From the NCBI GenBank assembly GCA_015486845.1, contig WFQU01000141.1, positions 1 to 37,228 of the forward strand: DNA of 37,228 nt. Direction: 5' to 3'. The DNA comes from Anaerolineae bacterium (GTDB lineage: Bacteria; Chloroflexota; Anaerolineae; JAADDB01). This document shows positions 11,210 through 18,897 of this stretch, one piece after another (within the stretch, counting starts at the first letter, position 1; every line of letters begins with the position of its first letter). The notes under the pieces are model-generated. The model did no database searches. It saw nothing but the letters and a program-made list of their open reading frames with translations, and was not told the origin of the DNA. Both the position numbers and the translations under genes were made by a program.

Positions 11210-11575
11210 ATGAGTGATGTAACTGTAGCAAATGAAGATTTAGCATTGGCGCACCGCATTGTGGATCTGTTGGCAGAGAAACAAGCGGTGGATATTTTGT
11301 TATTGGATGTGGACAAACTGACCAGTTTAGGCCGTTATTTTCTGATTTGTACGTCTGAATCGGATCGTCAGACGAAAGCGTTGCGCGATACTGTGGCTGA
11401 GTCCTTGAAAAAGGAAGGGATGCAGCCCTACTTACGTGAAGGAGAACCGGGCGACGGGTGGTTGATTTTGGATTACGGCAGCGTGATCGTGCACATTTTC
11501 AGCCCGTCGCAGCGCATGTATTACCGGCTTGAGGATTTCTGGAGTGCTGGGCGGGTTGTGCTGCGCGTGCAGTGA
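11210..11575 (+). CDS. rsfS: Ribosomal silencing factor RsfS
   Basis: This encodes a 121-residue RsfS/Iojap protein, which binds ribosomal protein uL14 on the large subunit and blocks subunit joining when nutrients are scarce. The family pattern is clear: IVDLLAEKQAVDILLLDVDKL, then YFLICTSESDRQTKALRDTV, GEPGDGWLILDYGSVIVHIFSPSQRMYYRLEDFW, the last being the typical C-terminal block. Length is normal. ATG 11210 is preceded by GGGAGG at about 11191. The gene is isolated: repeat DNA lies upstream, and a new promoter starts two bases after its stop codon. The usual partners nadD and obg are not adjacent. Confidence 0.95.
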   Translation: MSDVTVANEDLALAHRIVDLLAEKQAVDILLLDVDKLTSLGRYFLICTSESDRQTKALRDTVAESLKKEGMQPYLREGEPGDGWLILDYGSVIVHIFSPSQRMYYRLEDFWSAGRVVLRVQ

Positions 11576-11576
11576 T

Positions 11577-11605
11577 TTGACAGGATAGTCTTGTTGTGCT
11601 ATATT
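11577..11605 (+). promoter_or_regulatory. Consensus promoter of the B12 uptake operon
   Basis: TTGACA (11577-11582) is followed after exactly 17 bases by TATATT (11600-11605). It sits directly after the rsfS stop and directly before the cobalamin riboswitch, with the start expected near 11612. Confidence 0.85.
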
Positions 11606-11624
11606 GTCGCTAACAATTGAATAG

Positions 11625-11770
11625 TGAGCCAAAGGTGTGCACAGGTTTTGCGATCTGTGGCGCGAACGGGGAAATCGGTGTGAATCCGGTGCTGACCCGC
11701 AACTGTGAGCCGCTGTGGCGGTGAGCCAGACACCCGGCCTTTGGTGCAATCCCACGTGCCTTCGTGGAGT
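11625..11770 (+). ncRNA. Cobalamin (B12) riboswitch
   Basis: The conserved core is present: GGGGAAATCGGTGTGAATC, CCGGTGCTGACCCGCAACTG and GAGCCAGACACCCGGCC. The closing helix pairs GCCAAAGG (11628-11635) with CCTTTGGT (11738-11745). A following hairpin CCACG/CGTGG (11752-11756/11763-11767) with a six-base loop may be the P13 element of the expression platform. The aptamer binds a cobalamin cofactor and would switch off the downstream genes when B12 is plentiful, using the terminator 37 bases further on. Confidence 0.92.
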
Positions 11771-11806: not shown

Positions 11807-11840
11807 AACCCTGAGCCGATTGCTCAGGGTTTTCTTTTTT
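11807..11840 (+). terminator. Intrinsic terminator of the riboswitch
   Basis: AACCCTGAGC (11807-11816) pairs perfectly with GCTCAGGGTT (11822-11831) around a five-base loop and runs into TTCTTTTTT. Its place just after the cobalamin aptamer makes it the likely transcriptional off-switch. The antiterminator partner was not identified. Confidence 0.9.
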
Positions 11841-12088: not shown

Positions 12089-13102
12089 GTGCGAGTTATC
12101 TTTTCGATATGGTTGGCTGTGTTATGTTTGTTCGGCACGGGGAGTCTGCCGGTCCGGGCGACAACGCACACGCCTGCATCACTGCGGCACCGTTCCTGGC
12201 AGCGGGCGGCGGCCTGGCTACATGCCCAGCAGCAACCGGATGGTAGCTTAGGCTATGTTGGTGTGACGGCGGCTGTCGCTTACGATATCGCTTTAGCCGG
12301 CGAAGATCCGGCCGGCCCGACTTGGTCGATGAACGGGCATTCGCTGCTGGCCGCATTGGAAACAGCAACGCCGGCTTACGTGGATAGCGGCGACGCGGGG
12401 CAGATTGGCCGGGTGCTGCTGGCCGTGGCCGCAGCCGGCGCGGATCCGCGCCACTTTGCCGGCCGGGATTTGGTGGCGCTGCTGCAAGCGACTTATCAGC
12501 CGGCGACCGGCCTGTATAACCGTTATAACAATTTTCGTAATGCTTTGGCGTTGGAAGCGTTGGCCGTGGCGGGAAGGCCTGTTCCCGGGGCGGCCGTGAC
12601 CGCGCTGTTGGCGCAGCAACAAGTTAACGGCGGTTGGGGGTGGCAAGTCGGCGGCAGCGGCGTGGATGTGGACAGCACGGGTTTGATCATGGAAGCGTTG
12701 GCCGGGGCCGGCGTGCCGGGCACCCACCCGGCTATGCAGAAAGCGATTGCGTTTCTACACAGCCAGCAAAAAGCGGATGGCGGCTGGGGCACGATGTACT
12801 CGGCGGCCAGCAACAGCAATTCGACGGCGTTGGCTTTGCGGGGATTAATCGCTTGCGGCGTTGATCCGGAAGCTGCTTCCTGGCGCCAAGAGGTCGCCGA
12901 CACGGAAGTCACGCCGGTGGAGCGGCTGCTACGCTTTCAGGAAACGGATGGCGCTTACCGGTACAGCGACGCGTTGGCCGGCTCGCGGCTAATGGCGGCC
13001 GCCGATGTCCTGCCGGCGTTAAGCGCGTCCTATCCCGGCGACGTTGCTTTGCTGGAACATTTATATTTCCCTGTACTGCTGCGTAGATCTTTGACGCATT
13101 GA
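12089..13102 (+). CDS. Secreted alpha/alpha-barrel protein, transcobalamin alpha-domain-like
   Basis: This encodes a 337-residue exported protein. Residues 1-25 (MRVIFSIWLAVLCLFGTGSL then PVRA) form a signal peptide without a lipobox Cys. The mature part is built of helical repeats of the squalene-cyclase/prenyltransferase type: QQPDGSLG (48-55), QQQVNGGWGW (176-185), QQKADGGWGT (226-235) and QETDGAYRY (284-292), with VDSTGLIMEAL and NSTALALRGL helices between. Catalytic Asp motifs of true terpene cyclases are not evident. Intrinsic factor and transcobalamin alpha domains share this fold, and the gene is first after a cobalamin riboswitch and precedes beta-domain-like and ECF transporter genes. 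I infer an extracellular B12-binding half. GTG 12089 is the start, six bases after GAGGAA. No anchor is visible, so it may be held by its partners. Confidence 0.75.
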   Translation: MRVIFSIWLAVLCLFGTGSLPVRATTHTPASLRHRSWQRAAAWLHAQQQPDGSLGYVGVTAAVAYDIALAGEDPAGPTWSMNGHSLLAALETATPAYVDSGDAGQIGRVLLAVAAAGADPRHFAGRDLVALLQATYQPATGLYNRYNNFRNALALEALAVAGRPVPGAAVTALLAQQQVNGGWGWQVGGSGVDVDSTGLIMEALAGAGVPGTHPAMQKAIAFLHSQQKADGGWGTMYSAASNSNSTALALRGLIACGVDPEAASWRQEVADTEVTPVERLLRFQETDGAYRYSDALAGSRLMAAADVLPALSASYPGDVALLEHLYFPVLLRRSLTH

Positions 13103-13123
13103 GTTTGGTCCCAATATATTGGG
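13091..13123 (+). promoter_or_regulatory. Possible internal promoter with a perfect palindrome
   Basis: TTGACG (13091-13096) lies 18 bases before TATATT (13115-13120). The -10 is embedded in a perfect 14-bp palindrome CCCAATATATTGGG (13110-13123), which could be an operator. It lies between the alpha-domain and first beta-domain genes. Confidence 0.45.
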
Positions 13124-13155
13124 TTGAATCCAATTCTTTATAGGAGGTTTGTTTG

Positions 13156-13713
13156 ATGAAAAGAATGCGTTGGTTGGTTCCGGTGTTACTTTTGTTGGCT
13201 TTGCTTCTGTTCACGGCCATTGGCTATGCTGGCGGCAACAAAAGTGTTGGTTTGGTGGTGCAGTTTCCCGACGGCAGCGTCAAAAGTACGACGGTTACTG
13301 TGCCGGTGGATGCGACGACCGCGAATGTGTTAGCCGCTTCTTCTTTCAATGCCGCAATAGCCCAAGGCAGCTATGGCCCGGCGTTGTGTGGCATCGACAA
13401 TCAAGGGTGCAGCGCCGACAACTGCTTCTGTGATGCCAATCATTTTTGGGCTTACTACCACTTGGTCAATAAGAAATGGCAGGCCTCGTCGGCGGGTATT
13501 GGCGGCTACACGCCGGCCGGTCACACCGTGGAAGGATTTGCCTGGAGCGGATTCGACGCCAATTACGCGCCGACTGTGCAGCCGCCGGTCATGACCTACG
13601 ACCAGATCGTTGCGGCACAGCCGGTGCCGGTGCCGGAGCCCGCTACCGTTTTCCTGGTGGGGAGCGGCATCATTGGCTTGGCCGGTTATGCCTGGCGTCG
13701 CCGGGCTGCGTAG
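13156..13713 (+). CDS. Transcobalamin beta-domain-like (DUF4430-type) protein with PEP-CTERM-like tail
   Basis: This encodes a 185-residue exported protein. A signal peptide (about 1-25, ending in GYAGG) leads into one small beta domain. Key features are GLVVQFPDGS (32-41), a Cys cluster C78, C85, C90, C92 (CGID..GC....CFC), FWAYYHLVNKKWQ (97-109) and GIGGYTPAGHTVEGFAW, which resemble the DUF4430/transcobalamin C-terminal domain. The next gene's product has the same blocks. The C-terminus has VPEPAT (159-164), a hydrophobic helix and RRR (181-183), the classical layout of a PEP-CTERM signal processed by an exosortase; no exosortase gene is in the window. ATG 13156 follows TAGGAGG (13141-13147) by 8 bases. 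I infer a surface B12-binding partner of the alpha-domain protein. Confidence 0.72.
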   Translation: MKRMRWLVPVLLLLALLLFTAIGYAGGNKSVGLVVQFPDGSVKSTTVTVPVDATTANVLAASSFNAAIAQGSYGPALCGIDNQGCSADNCFCDANHFWAYYHLVNKKWQASSAGIGGYTPAGHTVEGFAWSGFDANYAPTVQPPVMTYDQIVAAQPVPVPEPATVFLVGSGIIGLAGYAWRRRAA

Positions 13714-14028: not shown

Positions 14029-15336
14029 ATGCGTAAAATAACATTCGGCTTGTTGCTGGTCATTGGTCTATTGCTTTGGCCGGGGACATTGTCGGCACAG
14101 TCCACGTCGGCGCACCACGCCGGACTGGTGGTGCGGTTTGGCAACGGTTCTGTGGTGACGCGCTGTGTGCCTTTCCAGGGTGACAAAATCAGCGGCATCG
14201 AGCTTTTGGGCCACTCGGGACTGGATGTTATCGCTTCGCCTAACGGTGGCATGGGGATGACGGTGTGCAAGATTGACCGGGAAGGGTGTGATTTCCCCTC
14301 CGAGCCCTGTTTTTGCCAATGCCAGGGCGGCGGTTCTTGTGTTTACTGGGCGTATTATCACCTGCAAAACGGTCAGTGGCTCTATTCGCAGAGTGGTGCC
14401 GGCAATAGCTATTTGCACGATGGCGATGTGGACGGCTGGGCCTGGGGGGCGGGGGAGCCGGGCAGCGGCGCCGAGCCGCCGCAACGCACTTTCGCCGATG
14501 TGTGTGCCCATGTCGTTGCGGCCACGGCGACAGCCACGGCAACTACGGTGCCTCCGACGGCAACGGCTACCTCAACCGCACTGCCGCCAACGGCGACGCC
14601 CACAGCGACGCCGGTCCCGACCCACACGCCGACTGCGGTGCCGCTAACGGCTACAGCCACGTCTACTGCTACGCCGTCGTCCACGTCGACTGTCTCCCCT
14701 ACACCGACGCACACGCCTACGGCGACCGCTTCGCCGACGGTCACGCCAACCCCCACGCCGACGTTCACCGCGGAGTTCGCCGTAGTGCCGGAAACGATCA
14801 GCACCGGTGGATGTGCTATTCTGCGCTGGGCGGTGGAAGGCGTGCAGGCGGTTTACCTGAGTGACGGCAGTCATGAGGTCGGGGTAACCGGCCACGAGCA
14901 GCGGCAGGTTTGCCCGACGACGAAAACCACCTATACCCTGCGCGTGGTGGCCAACAACGCGACGCATCTTTACCATGTGACATTGTTGGTGCAAACGCCG
15001 ACCCCCACGCCCACCGCGACGGTCACCCCGAAAGTTTCTCCCTCGCCGACGCCGACCCGAACGGCGACGCCCACGTTGACGCCGGTTCCCACGCAGACGC
15101 CGACGGTCGCTTTCACGCCGACTTTCACGTCCACGGCGGTTGCCGCGACGAAAACAGCGCTGCCGGCCACGATTGTGCCGACACAAAGCGCTCCTACGCC
15201 ATTGCCGGTGCAGCCAAAAAGTAAGCGATCTTCGTCCGCGCCTACGTTGAAGCAATTGCTGGCATATCTCGCTTTCCTCTTCATGTTGGGCGTGCTCCTG
15301 GCAGTTGCGGCGCTGTTCTTCTGGCGGAGGGATTGA
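14029..15336 (+). CDS. Membrane-anchored transcobalamin beta-domain-like protein with Thr/Pro stalks
   Basis: This encodes a 435-residue surface protein. In order: signal peptide (1-24, ending LSAQS); a beta domain (about 29-160) with GLVVRFGNGS, a Cys cluster at C80, C87, C94, C96 and C98, and VYWAYYHLQNGQW (105-117), paralogous to the preceding product; a Thr/Pro/Ala stalk (about 163-246); a small Ig-like domain (about 247-322) with C262 and C295; a second stalk (323-395); and one membrane helix (about 408-431) ending in WRRD. The protein thus stands on the cell surface with its beta domain held away from the membrane. Start ATG 14029 follows a GGAAAGGAAAGG purine stretch. The next gene's ATG overlaps its stop by one base. 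I infer it presents cobalamin to the ECF importer. Confidence 0.75.
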   Translation: MRKITFGLLLVIGLLLWPGTLSAQSTSAHHAGLVVRFGNGSVVTRCVPFQGDKISGIELLGHSGLDVIASPNGGMGMTVCKIDREGCDFPSEPCFCQCQGGGSCVYWAYYHLQNGQWLYSQSGAGNSYLHDGDVDGWAWGAGEPGSGAEPPQRTFADVCAHVVAATATATATTVPPTATATSTALPPTATPTATPVPTHTPTAVPLTATATSTATPSSTSTVSPTPTHTPTATASPTVTPTPTPTFTAEFAVVPETISTGGCAILRWAVEGVQAVYLSDGSHEVGVTGHEQRQVCPTTKTTYTLRVVANNATHLYHVTLLVQTPTPTPTATVTPKVSPSPTPTRTATPTLTPVPTQTPTVAFTPTFTSTAVAATKTALPATIVPTQSAPTPLPVQPKSKRSSSAPTLKQLLAYLAFLFMLGVLLAVAALFFWRRD

Positions 15337-16436
15337 TGTGTGATGGTGTGCACCCGTATGGCCGGCTGCTTTGGCTTTTGACCGCGGCGCTGCCAGCGCT
15401 CTTGACGCATAATCCACTTTACCTGACGCTGTTGTTGGCTTCCATCGGTGTTATGTTCCTGGCCCGTCGACGCGCGGCGCTGGCTGGCGGCTCCCCGGCG
15501 CCGGGCCAGATGGGATGGCGCACGTTTCTGACTCTGGCGCTCTGGATCGGCGGCTTCAGCATCGCATTTAACGGATTGACGACCCATTTCGGCCGGATAC
15601 TGCTCTTCCGCTTGCCGTCCGGCTGGCCGCTGCTCGGCGGCATCATCACCGGCGAAGCGTTCCTCTACGGCCTCGCCAACGCGTTGGCGCTGGTCACGCT
15701 CATCGCCGCTTTCGTCACTTTCAACAGCATCCTGCCCCGGGAAGAACTGTTGCGGCTGCTGCCCCGTTCGCTTTTCTACCTCGGGCTGATCGTTTCCATC
15801 GGCGTGGCGTTCGTCCCGGCGCTGGTGCAATCCTGGCAATCGATCCGCGAAGCGCAATTGTTGCGGGGCTATCGTTTCCGCCGCTGGCACGATTATCTGC
15901 CGTTGTTCGTGCCGCTACTGGCGGGAAGCTTCGAGAGTGCGCTGCAATTGGCCGCTTCCATGGAAAGCCGCGGCTTCGGCGGCCGCGTTGTGCCACAATC
16001 TGCCCGGGCCGTGCGTTATGCCCGGCTGACTTTTGCTCTGGCGTCGTGTCTCGTGATCATCGGTCTCTTGGCCCGCGGCTACTGGCCGCGCCGGCCGCTT
16101 TACGGTGTCTCTTTTCTGCTGATTGGCTTAGCGCTGTTGTTGCTCCTCTCCCACCGCCAGGGGCGGCTGGTGCAACGCACCAGGTACCGCCGCTGGCTCT
16201 GGCGGCGTGCTGACACCGTTTGGGCGATCCTGGCCGCGGGACAGCTTTTGGCGTTGCTGGCCCTCTGGTATGCCCGGCGGAGCGCATTGATCTACTATCC
16301 CTATCCGCCTTATGCTCCCTGGCCCGCTTTCGACCCGCTGGTGGGCGTGTTGATGATGTGGCCGGCACTGCCTGCGCTTCTTCCCGCGCGTGATCTTTTC
16401 GCTCGCCGGACGCTTTCGCCCGAGGAGGGACGATGA
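15336..16436 (+). CDS. ecfT: ECF transporter T component (EcfT/CbiQ family)
   Basis: This encodes a 366-residue membrane protein of the energy-coupling-factor transmembrane family, the scaffold that links ATPases to the substrate-binding S component. Several hydrophobic helices occur in the first 160 residues. Two coupling motifs follow: EAQLLRGYRF (LRG at 176-178) and AASMESRGFGG (SRG at 211-213), the x-Arg-Gly signatures whose helices dock on the ATPases. Further helices occur at the C-terminus, making the protein longer than the usual 250-270 residues. ATG 15336 overlaps the previous stop in TGATG, with GGAGG at 15326-15330; an in-frame TTG at 15333 is less likely. The stop overlaps the ATPase gene by 4 bases. 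It is under the same cobalamin riboswitch unless internal promoters dominate. Confidence 0.9.
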   Translation: MCDGVHPYGRLLWLLTAALPALLTHNPLYLTLLLASIGVMFLARRRAALAGGSPAPGQMGWRTFLTLALWIGGFSIAFNGLTTHFGRILLFRLPSGWPLLGGIITGEAFLYGLANALALVTLIAAFVTFNSILPREELLRLLPRSLFYLGLIVSIGVAFVPALVQSWQSIREAQLLRGYRFRRWHDYLPLFVPLLAGSFESALQLAASMESRGFGGRVVPQSARAVRYARLTFALASCLVIIGLLARGYWPRRPLYGVSFLLIGLALLLLLSHRQGRLVQRTRYRRWLWRRADTVWAILAAGQLLALLALWYARRSALIYYPYPPYAPWPAFDPLVGVLMMWPALPALLPARDLFARRTLSPEEGR

Positions 16437-18079
16437 CGCCGCTGATCACTTTCCGCCACTTTTCGTACAGCTATCCGGAAGGTGCCCGGCCGGTGCTGCG
16501 CGATTTGAGCCTTTCCGTCGAAGAAGGGGAATTTGTGTTGGTGATGGGGCGCTCCGGCGTGGGGAAATCCACTTTTCTGCGGGCGTTGAACGGCTTGGTG
16601 CCACATTTCTACGGCGGCGAAATCGCCGGCAGCGTTTCGGTAGCCGGCAAAGACCCGGTCGCCCTGGGTACCCGTGCCATGAGCGAACTGGTCGGCTTCG
16701 TGGATCAAAGCCCGGAGCGCACGTTTGTATCGGAACGGGTGGAGGAAGAGCTGGTTTTCGCGCTGGAAAACCTGGCCGTGCCGCCGCTGATCATGCGCAA
16801 ACGGGTGGAAGAAGTGCTGGACCAGTTAGGGATTGCGCCGTTGCGCAGCCGCGCCATCGCCACACTTTCCGGCGGGGAGAAACAGCGGGTGGCCATCGCC
16901 GCCGCGCTGACGATGCAGCCGCGCGTTTTGGTGTTGGACGAGCCGACTTCGCAGTTAGACCCGCAGTCGGCGGAGGATGTCTTGACCGCGCTGCGCCGGC
17001 TGAACGAGGATTTGGGGTTGACAGTGCTGGTGAGCGAGCACCGGCTGGAGCGGGTGCTGCCGTTTGCCGACCGGGTCATCGCTTTTACCGAGTCGGGTGC
17101 GCAGCCGCTCTGCGGCACGCCGGCCGACGTGGTGGCGCAGGTGGATTTGCTGCCGCCGGTGGTCGCTTTGGGGAAAGCGCTGGGCTGGCAGCCGTTGCCG
17201 TTGACGTTGAAAGCGGCGCGGCGTTTCGTGCCAGGGCTCTCTTTGCCGGCCGTCGGGAGCGCGATTGCGAGTACGACCGAATCGCCGCCGTTGATTGCCG
17301 CGGAGAAACTCTGGTTCCGTTACAACGGCCACGACGTGCTGCGCGACGCGTCGCTGCGGCTGCCTCGGGGCACGCTGCTGGCGCTGATGGGCCGCAACGG
17401 TGCCGGCAAAACGACATTGTTGAAGCAATTGGTAGGACTTTTGCGCCCGCGCGAGGGCCGGGTGCGGTTTTTCCCACTGCGCGGCACGACAGTGGACGTG
17501 GGCAAAACGGCGCTGCCCGATTTAATCCAGCATATCGGCATGGTGCCGCAAGACCCGGGCGCGTTCTTGTTCCAGGAGCGCGTGTTGGACGAATTGGCCG
17601 TCACCCGGCGCAATCACGGTTTGCCGGCCGATGAAGCGGCGGATAGGGCGCTGCTGACGCATTTGGGCGTAGACCACTTGGCGGCACAGAATCCTCGTGA
17701 TTTGAGCGGCGGCGAGCAGCAACGGGTGGCGTTGGCGTCGATCATGGTGGCGCAGCCGGAGCTTTTGCTGCTGGACGAGCCGACGCGCGGCCTGGATTAC
17801 GCCCAGAAAGAAGCATTGGTCGCGTTACTGCGTTCGTTGCAAGCGGACGGCGTGAGCATCATCATGGCGACGCACGACGTGGAACTGGTGGCGCAGGCGG
17901 CGGACGCGGTGGCGCTGATGGCGGAAGGAGAGGTGATTCTGTCCGGGCCGACCCGGGAAGTGATGACGGAATCGTTGCTTTTTGCACCGCAGCTGAACAA
18001 ATTGCTGCGCGATCCCCGCTTTTTGACGCTGGAGGATGTGCTATCAGCGCTTCCGGTCCGGCCGGAGAGCCCGGCATGA
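16433..18079 (+). CDS. ecfA: ECF transporter fused double ATPase (EcfA-EcfA')
   Basis: This encodes a 548-residue protein holding two complete ABC ATPase domains, the energising part of an ECF importer. Domain 1 has Walker A GRSGVGKS (39-46), signature LSGGEKQ (145-151) and Walker B VLVLDEPT (165-172). Domain 2 has Walker A GRNGAGKT (320-327), signature LSGGEQQ (424-430) and Walker B LLLLDEPT (444-451). A linker of about 60 residues joins them. In many ECF systems the two ATPases are separate proteins, so this is a fusion. ATG 16433 overlaps the T-component stop in an ATGA arrangement, and its own stop overlaps the S-component start in the same way, so stoichiometric production is likely. Confidence 0.95.
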   Translation: MTPLITFRHFSYSYPEGARPVLRDLSLSVEEGEFVLVMGRSGVGKSTFLRALNGLVPHFYGGEIAGSVSVAGKDPVALGTRAMSELVGFVDQSPERTFVSERVEEELVFALENLAVPPLIMRKRVEEVLDQLGIAPLRSRAIATLSGGEKQRVAIAAALTMQPRVLVLDEPTSQLDPQSAEDVLTALRRLNEDLGLTVLVSEHRLERVLPFADRVIAFTESGAQPLCGTPADVVAQVDLLPPVVALGKALGWQPLPLTLKAARRFVPGLSLPAVGSAIASTTESPPLIAAEKLWFRYNGHDVLRDASLRLPRGTLLALMGRNGAGKTTLLKQLVGLLRPREGRVRFFPLRGTTVDVGKTALPDLIQHIGMVPQDPGAFLFQERVLDELAVTRRNHGLPADEAADRALLTHLGVDHLAAQNPRDLSGGEQQRVALASIMVAQPELLLLDEPTRGLDYAQKEALVALLRSLQADGVSIIMATHDVELVAQAADAVALMAEGEVILSGPTREVMTESLLFAPQLNKLLRDPRFLTLEDVLSALPVRPESPA

Positions 18080-18897
18080 CTGAGGATTTATCGTCGGCCG
18101 GCCGGGGCAAGCGTTGTTGGGACGGCGTGATGCTGTTCTTGACGGGGCTGACCGGGGTCGTGGCGTTTCTCTACCCGTTTCTCTTCCCGCCGGCGGTGCA
18201 ACGGCCGGGAGGCGCCCAGGCGCATGCTCAGGACGCCCCACTTTTTCTTGGCGTGCTGCTTCTGCTCATGTTGACTTTTCTGTTGGCGAACCTGACCGGT
18301 GAGGGGATGGGCAGCAAAGATGTGGCGATGCTGGGCGTTTTGGCGGCGGCCGGCGCAGTGCTCCGTTTCTTGCCGCTGCCCGGCGGTGCCTCGGCGTTTT
18401 TCTTCCTGCCCATTTTGGCCGGCTATGTTTACGGACCGACTTTCGGCTTCCTGGCCGGAAGCAGCGCCCTGCTGGTTGCGGCGCTGTTCAGCGGGGGCAT
18501 CGGCCCGTGGCTGCCCTATCAGATGTTCGCCGCGGGGTGGGTGGGGGCTTTGCCTGGCTTTCTACCCCGCCGGGGCCGGGATGACCGGCTCGAGCTCGTT
18601 CTGCTGGCGTTCACCGGCTTCCTTTTGGGGTTGTTTTATGGCGCGGTCATGAATTTGTGGTTCTGGCCGTTCGTCTACCAGCCGCAACTGCCGGGGCAAT
18701 ACTGGCAGGCAGGGCTCGGCGTGACCGATACGTTGCGCCGCTATCTGCTTTTCTACCTCACCACTTCCCTTTGGTGGGACATCCTGCGCGGCGCAGGCAA
18801 TGCGCTCTTGCTGCTCTTTTTCGGCGTGCCTGTTTTGCGGCTCTTCCGGCGCTATCAGCGTCGTTTCTATTTTCGTGTGCGCCGGGAGTTGGAGTGA
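18076..18897 (+). CDS. ECF transporter S component, probable cobalamin-specific subunit
   Basis: This encodes a 273-residue polytopic membrane protein with about six or seven hydrophobic segments. The central block FLPLPGGASAFFFLPILAGYVYGPTFGFLAGSSALLVAALFSGGIGPWLPYQMFAAGWVG has the look of ECF substrate-binding (S) subunits, in which the GPW-Q-F-GW region is typical. It begins inside the stop codon of the ATPase gene (ATGA overlap) and ends the operon. The N-terminal MHIxDG metal-binding signature of CbiM/NikM subunits is absent, so cobalt or nickel import is unlikely. The cobalamin riboswitch and B12-binding-like neighbours point to cobalamin, as in the CbrT-type ECF systems. Similarity to CbrT itself could not be measured here. 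Confidence 0.82.
   Translation: MTEDLSSAGRGKRCWDGVMLFLTGLTGVVAFLYPFLFPPAVQRPGGAQAHAQDAPLFLGVLLLLMLTFLLANLTGEGMGSKDVAMLGVLAAAGAVLRFLPLPGGASAFFFLPILAGYVYGPTFGFLAGSSALLVAALFSGGIGPWLPYQMFAAGWVGALPGFLPRRGRDDRLELVLLAFTGFLLGLFYGAVMNLWFWPFVYQPQLPGQYWQAGLGVTDTLRRYLLFYLTTSLWWDILRGAGNALLLLFFGVPVLRLFRRYQRRFYFRVRRELE

Follow-up and report, generated by a model that had tools for sequence, protein, structure and literature searches.

Can the two halves of a transcobalamin-like B12 receptor be made as separate bacterial proteins, and if so, to what would they deliver their ligand? This question is raised by a locus on a 37,228-nucleotide stretch of DNA (here, the window), contig C141 of a 3.28-Mb metagenome-type assembly. 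An initial annotation had described an alpha-barrel gene without a beta domain, two separate genes for beta-like domains, and an alpha protein that has a signal peptide yet no lipobox or membrane anchor and might depend on its partners to stay at the cell. Missing from that account were a cobalamin riboswitch, a promoter, a terminator, a PEP-CTERM signal on the first beta protein (beta1), a transmembrane (TM) anchor on the second (beta2), and an ECF importer downstream. The genes run in the order rsfS, riboswitch leader, alpha, beta1, beta2, and ECF T, A-A' and S, with the following features:

11210-11572: rsfS, upstream of the promoter-like site
11577..11605, + strand: sigma-70-like promoter, TTGACA-17-TATATT with extended -10 (consensus match only)
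11616..11756, + strand: cobalamin riboswitch aptamer (RF00174)
11807..11831, + strand: intrinsic terminator directly 3' of the aptamer, the riboswitch expression platform
12089..13102, + strand: alpha half, an alpha/alpha-barrel protein of 337 aa, predicted secreted, GTG start
13156..13713, + strand: beta1, a predicted secreted beta-grasp protein (transcobalamin-beta-like) with a C-terminal sorting signal
13627..13704, + strand: exosortase-type PEP-CTERM sorting signal in beta1 (PF07589, above cut-off at E=9.8e-7)
14029..15336, + strand: beta2, a predicted secreted beta-grasp protein with a TP-rich stalk and a C-terminal TM anchor
14092..14520, + strand: beta domain of beta2 (HMM envelope, 182 bits, the window sequence being in the model's own seed set)
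15247..15333, + strand: C-terminal TM anchor of beta2 (hydrophobic segment plus RR)
15333..16436, + strand: ECF T component, CbiQ-like (PF02361, E=5.7e-7)
16433..18079, + strand: ECF double ATPase A-A' (TIGR04520, 347 bits, above the cut-off of 315)
18076..18897, + strand: ECF S component, predicted B12-specific (PF12822, E=1.1e-14)

The leader ahead of alpha points to control by cobalamin. The aptamer scores 60.3 bits against a gathering score of 31.5 (E=1.1e-12), and the terminator that follows it consists of a 10-bp hairpin and a T-run (fold -18 kcal/mol, z=-5.3); an aptamer above its gathering score and an expression platform are thus both present. The putative promoter matches 11 of 12 consensus positions, and TG precedes its -10 element. 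Besides the window, a cobalamin riboswitch is found ahead of all 21 loci scanned in the same class and in 7 of 8 further loci, the exception (L079) having almost no leader. This regulation is strong evidence for B12 as the ligand. Separately, Mo-cofactor riboswitches (RF01055) lie less than 10 kb from the operon in two relatives (L066 11944-12063, - strand; L070 16250-16368, - strand).

The window aptamer is one of two cobalamin riboswitches in its own genome. The other adjoins a BtuF-like (Peripla_BP_2) gene (G000:C87:4261-5564), so the alpha-beta-ECF operon is not the only candidate B12 importer of this genome. CbiC was not found in the genome, which is consistent with B12 auxotrophy. The bacterium therefore seems to scavenge B12, with two candidate routes for doing so.

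The ECF module is complete, with T, A, A' and S side by side downstream of beta2, and 4-bp gene overlaps run from beta2 through T and A to S. The order alpha-beta1-beta2-ECF (T-A-S) is repeated across most of the 40 loci retrieved from this class, and some genomes have only a single beta. A sequence search of the PDB found no relative of the S component, and it is the riboswitch and the operon that suggest B12 as its substrate. ECF S components normally bind their ligand themselves, without a soluble partner.

Searches with the alpha protein returned alpha/alpha-barrel families only (SQHop_cyclase PF13243, E=5e-11; SCO2321_fam, E=3e-20, the latter below its cut-off), and family HMM searches detected no beta domain in it. 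Its N terminus carries a hydrophobic segment resembling a signal peptide, and a regex scan detected no lipobox, C-terminal TM segment or LPxTG motif. The initial annotation was accurate on each of these points, as it was on the coordinates of the alpha gene (12089-13102) and the starts of the two beta genes (13156 and 14029). By the same kind of scan, 35 of 42 split alphas have no recognizable anchor; a lipobox-like match is present in four (L053, L067, L069 and L094) and a C-terminal TM segment in three (L093 and, together with LPxTG, L066 and L072). The alphas of some relatives contain two or three barrels in tandem. A short tail of Y/F-L/F-P-hydrophobic followed by R/K is common at alpha C termini (window 13061-13099, ..LYFPVLLRRSLTH); the strict pattern occurs in 20 of 65 alphas compared with 1.1% of internal windows, and alpha-type tails are also present on a few other proteins (L045 9301-13362, - strand; L083 13471-14193, - strand). 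This pattern is possibly an unrecognized sorting tail.

The two beta proteins share one domain family, as an HMM made from one recovers the other. Both match NCBIfam SCO2322_fam weakly and below its cut-off (beta1, E=2e-4; beta2, E=1.3e-9), and sequence searches of the PDB with beta gave no significant match. The TC-beta family of Pfam, DUF4430 (PF14478), had no match in this genome or in 150 genomes of the class, where two controls did match. The genome encodes an exosortase, EpsH (175 bits); with motif and exosortase both present, beta1 qualifies as a candidate PEP-CTERM/exosortase substrate, and its cleavage is predicted. Recognizable anchors in the window operon thus sit on the betas and not on alpha, in line with the earlier proposal that alpha relies on its partners for anchoring. 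Inside the TP-rich stalk of beta2 is a small extra segment (VVPETISTGGCAILRWAVEG...YTLRV, window about 14780-15010), which is conserved in L033 and has no convincing family match.

A tree of 101 beta domains, midpoint-rooted, printed without support values and relied on for its broad grouping alone, resolved three groups. Group A comprises betas fused N-terminally to alpha; group B, betas of the beta1 type that end in PEP-CTERM or LPxTG-like tails, the window beta1 among them; and group C, betas of the beta2 type, either stalked with a TM anchor or fused to S, among them the window beta2. Any orthology between group A and beta1 is uncertain. These lineages correlate with anchoring and with cysteine content. 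Eight Cys columns form co-varying pairs across the beta domains (window 14092-14520 and 13222-13620), with core pairs 1-3 and 2-4; the four core Cys are found in nearly all betas and two extra co-varying pairs mainly in beta2 types, an assignment to groups made by eye from the alignments. From this pattern, beta1 is expected to have two disulfides and beta2 four.

To what extent do these proteins resemble transcobalamin (TC)? By sequence, alpha is nearer to terpene cyclases than to TC, cyclases being what a PDB sequence search found. Structures were predicted for two relatives, L073 and L094, which represent the window proteins by homology. The model of L073, a natural beta-alpha fusion, reached a pLDDT of 88.9 and a pTM of 0.76; only its alpha part aligned in a fold search, to cyclases and to transcobalamin (4zrp at rank 8, E=8.9e-6), probably because its domain order is permuted relative to TC. 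In L094, a single in-frame TAG stands between alpha and beta2; it was read as Q so that a single chain with its natural spacer could be folded; this is a folding device and makes no claim of natural read-through, and five read-through rows bridge the two halves in the folding alignment. The resulting model (pLDDT 88.8, pTM 0.70) was compared with the PDB by Foldseek, and the top 15 matches are all TC, intrinsic factor (IF) or haptocorrin (HC) (E 3e-11 to 8e-9), aligned over 453-484 columns that cover both halves, with cyclases ranking after them at 5e-8. We read this model as both halves of a TC-type fold, a reading that extends to the window betas by homology. AlphaFold2 training probably included TC structures.

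Superposition of the full-length L094 model on TC is poor (rmsd 16-17 A, TM 0.40-0.50), the prediction being ligand-free and its domains packed otherwise than in holo-TC, and no alpha-beta interface is predicted in this ligand-free model. When the alpha and beta halves of human TC are expressed apart, they co-elute only with cobalamin, and intrinsic factor behaves likewise (PMC5599065). A ligand-free model without alpha-beta contact is thus to be expected and is no refutation of a joint binding site.

Among 249 genomes of the class, 111 (about 45%) encode both alpha and beta, 3 alpha only, 5 beta only, and 130 neither (Fisher p about 3e-60, calculated on draft assemblies and ignoring shared ancestry). 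Together with the recurring gene order, this genome-wide co-occurrence indicates that the split is no chance arrangement. Related loci in named records are nearly all from Chloroflexota, mostly Anaerolineae and Caldilineales/Caldilineaceae, which would place the uncultured bacterium of the window in that phylum. An actinomycete plasmid (L105, Embleya sp. NBC_00888, NZ_CP108785.1) also carries a split operon, with two cobalamin riboswitches, an alpha whose tail is LPxTG-like, a pair of betas and ECF T/A/S, in a region where the plasmid table lists no genes.

Genomes with fused halves, which the initial annotation had proposed to look for, do exist. Single-chain beta-alpha fusions occur in about 19 loci, of which two are truncated where their contigs stop; this count is biased upward by a search query that was itself a fusion. 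An alpha-alpha-beta2 fusion is present in L070, and beta2 is fused to the ECF S component in four genomes (L074, L075, L080 and L092). A frameshift behind the beta2-S fusions was considered and thought unlikely, as they lie in one frame in four separate genomes. Linkers between beta and alpha are short in either order. With alpha joined to group A betas in 19 loci and to the beta2 lineage in L070, the suggestion that two betas could share one type of alpha is supported. One beta-alpha fusion (L078, JSZA02000284.1) lies on a 4.6-kb contig labelled Candidatus Thiomargarita nelsonii, a label that may reflect contamination or transfer.

The opposite situation is seen in genus g64 (L047, L048, L058 and L106-L108), where alpha is part of a riboswitch-cobO-cobQ-alpha cluster (cobO and cobQ named from the sequences, not by HMM) and the pair beta1-beta2 sits on a different contig, preceded by a cobalamin riboswitch of its own. 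Linkage of alpha and beta is thus dispensable while the regulon is kept, and in g64 the split receptor comes from two unlinked operons of one regulon.

Taken together, these results make it probable that the window encodes a cobalamin-repressed operon for the uptake of B12 (cobamide), in which an alpha-B12-beta clamp delivers its ligand to the ECF importer. When B12 is low, transcription would read through the riboswitch terminator, and the cell would secrete the alpha half and two beta-grasp halves and make the importer. One B12 would be clamped between alpha and beta, so that the ligand itself joins the halves. Exosortase sorting of beta1 would retain the complexes in the envelope, and beta2, membrane-stalked or fused to S, would be the importer-side partner that presents the B12-alpha complex to S, which would then import B12 in an ATP-driven step. 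The roles suggested for beta1 and beta2 derive from their anchors and from the fusion partners of each beta, and the fusions of the halves to each other, or of a half to the importer, hint at how captured B12 might reach the membrane. We infer both the sandwich and the hand-over from beta1 to beta2 to S. A more specific version, in which alpha and envelope-bound beta1 capture B12 and beta1 is then swapped for an S-side beta2 (fused to S in some Caldilineales) to load ECF S, is tentative. Cobalamin as the ligand, which had been proposed earlier, agrees with a riboswitch ahead of every operon scanned with enough leader, but the term "receptor" was loose, the evidence fitting a capture module for an ECF importer.

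Another possibility is that the operon serves B12 uptake while alpha and beta bind separately or sequentially, without a transcobalamin-like sandwich; alpha might, for example, capture B12 and beta2 be merely a lid on the importer. Such an arrangement would suit models that lack an alpha-beta interface, alpha-only clusters with cobO-cobQ, the fusion of S to beta2 and not to alpha, and the single beta of some genomes. It is harder to reconcile with repeated fusions of the two halves by short linkers, with their near-perfect co-occurrence, and with best structural matches to proteins in which both halves touch one B12. We regard separate binding as unlikely. It is also rather improbable that the ligand is some other cobamide precursor, corrinoid or cobalt complex whose salvage is controlled by cobalamin. 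The riboswitch senses an end product and not the imported substrate, and alpha lies beside cobO and cobQ in g64, both of which would be compatible with such a ligand; however, the folds match B12 carriers, and with no CbiC found in the genome, the cell would seem to gain less from cobalt or from very early precursors. Finally, that alpha is a type II terpene-cyclase-like enzyme acting on a lipid or corrinoid, with the betas alone binding B12, is very hard to credit: squalene-hopene cyclases are its best sequence and Pfam matches, but all except one of 77 alpha domains lack the catalytic DxDD motif, on which ground a terpene cyclase was rejected (the aligned site is mostly D-x-D/N-S/T-T), and alpha is predicted to be secreted, is riboswitch-controlled and is fused to betas.

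The most likely reading of this locus is a module that captures B12 and passes it to an ECF importer. A transcobalamin-like module with a beta-S fusion in some genomes would break the picture of ECF importers as working without soluble binding proteins. Natural multi-protein TC halves would also open ligand-driven assembly to study without cutting a protein. Given its presence in 111 of 249 genomes, the system may be a main B12 uptake route for many uncultured relatives.

How does this system compare with those already known? By the L094 model, the animal proteins TC, IF and HC (4zrp, 2bb5, 3kq4 and 4kki) have the same two folds, alpha followed by beta. Unlike in these carriers, the halves lie on separate genes in the window, becoming one chain in fused relatives. 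The system further differs from TC in comprising three bacterial proteins, two of them beta paralogues, in its envelope anchors, in its control by a riboswitch, in its association with an ECF importer, and in showing no recognized match to TC by sequence. BtuFCD likewise imports B12 with an extracytoplasmic binding protein, as proposed here, but BtuF is a Peripla_BP_2 protein, unlike the window proteins, and this genome has a separate candidate for it elsewhere. The characterized ECF B12 importer, ECF-CbrT of Lactobacillus delbrueckii, resembles the window system in B12 import of the ECF type, and there CbrT acts as the binding protein (PMC5997447); the S component of the window, in contrast, has no detectable PDB sequence match and is accompanied by secreted partners.

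The actinomycete NCBIfam families SCO2321 and SCO2322 match alpha and beta weakly, short of their curated cut-offs (72.5 versus 300 bits and 38.5 versus 85 bits). The Embleya locus, with its alpha, beta, ECF T/A/S and riboswitch, encodes proteins that also fall well below these cut-offs, and the family entries give no function. A search of the open-access literature turned up no paper dealing with SCO2321 or SCO2322, or with a doubly anchored, split version.

The closest precedent comes from Burroughs et al. 2007 (PMC1796856), whose available text describes bacterial proteins in which alpha/alpha toroids lie to either side of an SLBB domain, as predicted B12 scavengers. According to that text, their operons include CbiO/CbiQ and in many cases another SLBB paralogue, genes for B12 synthesis are usually absent, and the proteins, fused or stand-alone, occur in low-GC Gram-positives, planctomycetes and euryarchaea. 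As described there, these systems share with the window a toroid and SLBB/beta paralogues beside CbiO/CbiQ-type genes, but the same text makes no mention of an alpha fully separate from two betas, anchoring by PEP-CTERM, a beta-S fusion, cobalamin riboswitches or Chloroflexota. This type of system was therefore already predicted in 2007, and what is new here is that the split is complete, that the two betas are anchored differently, and that beta is fused to S in some relatives.
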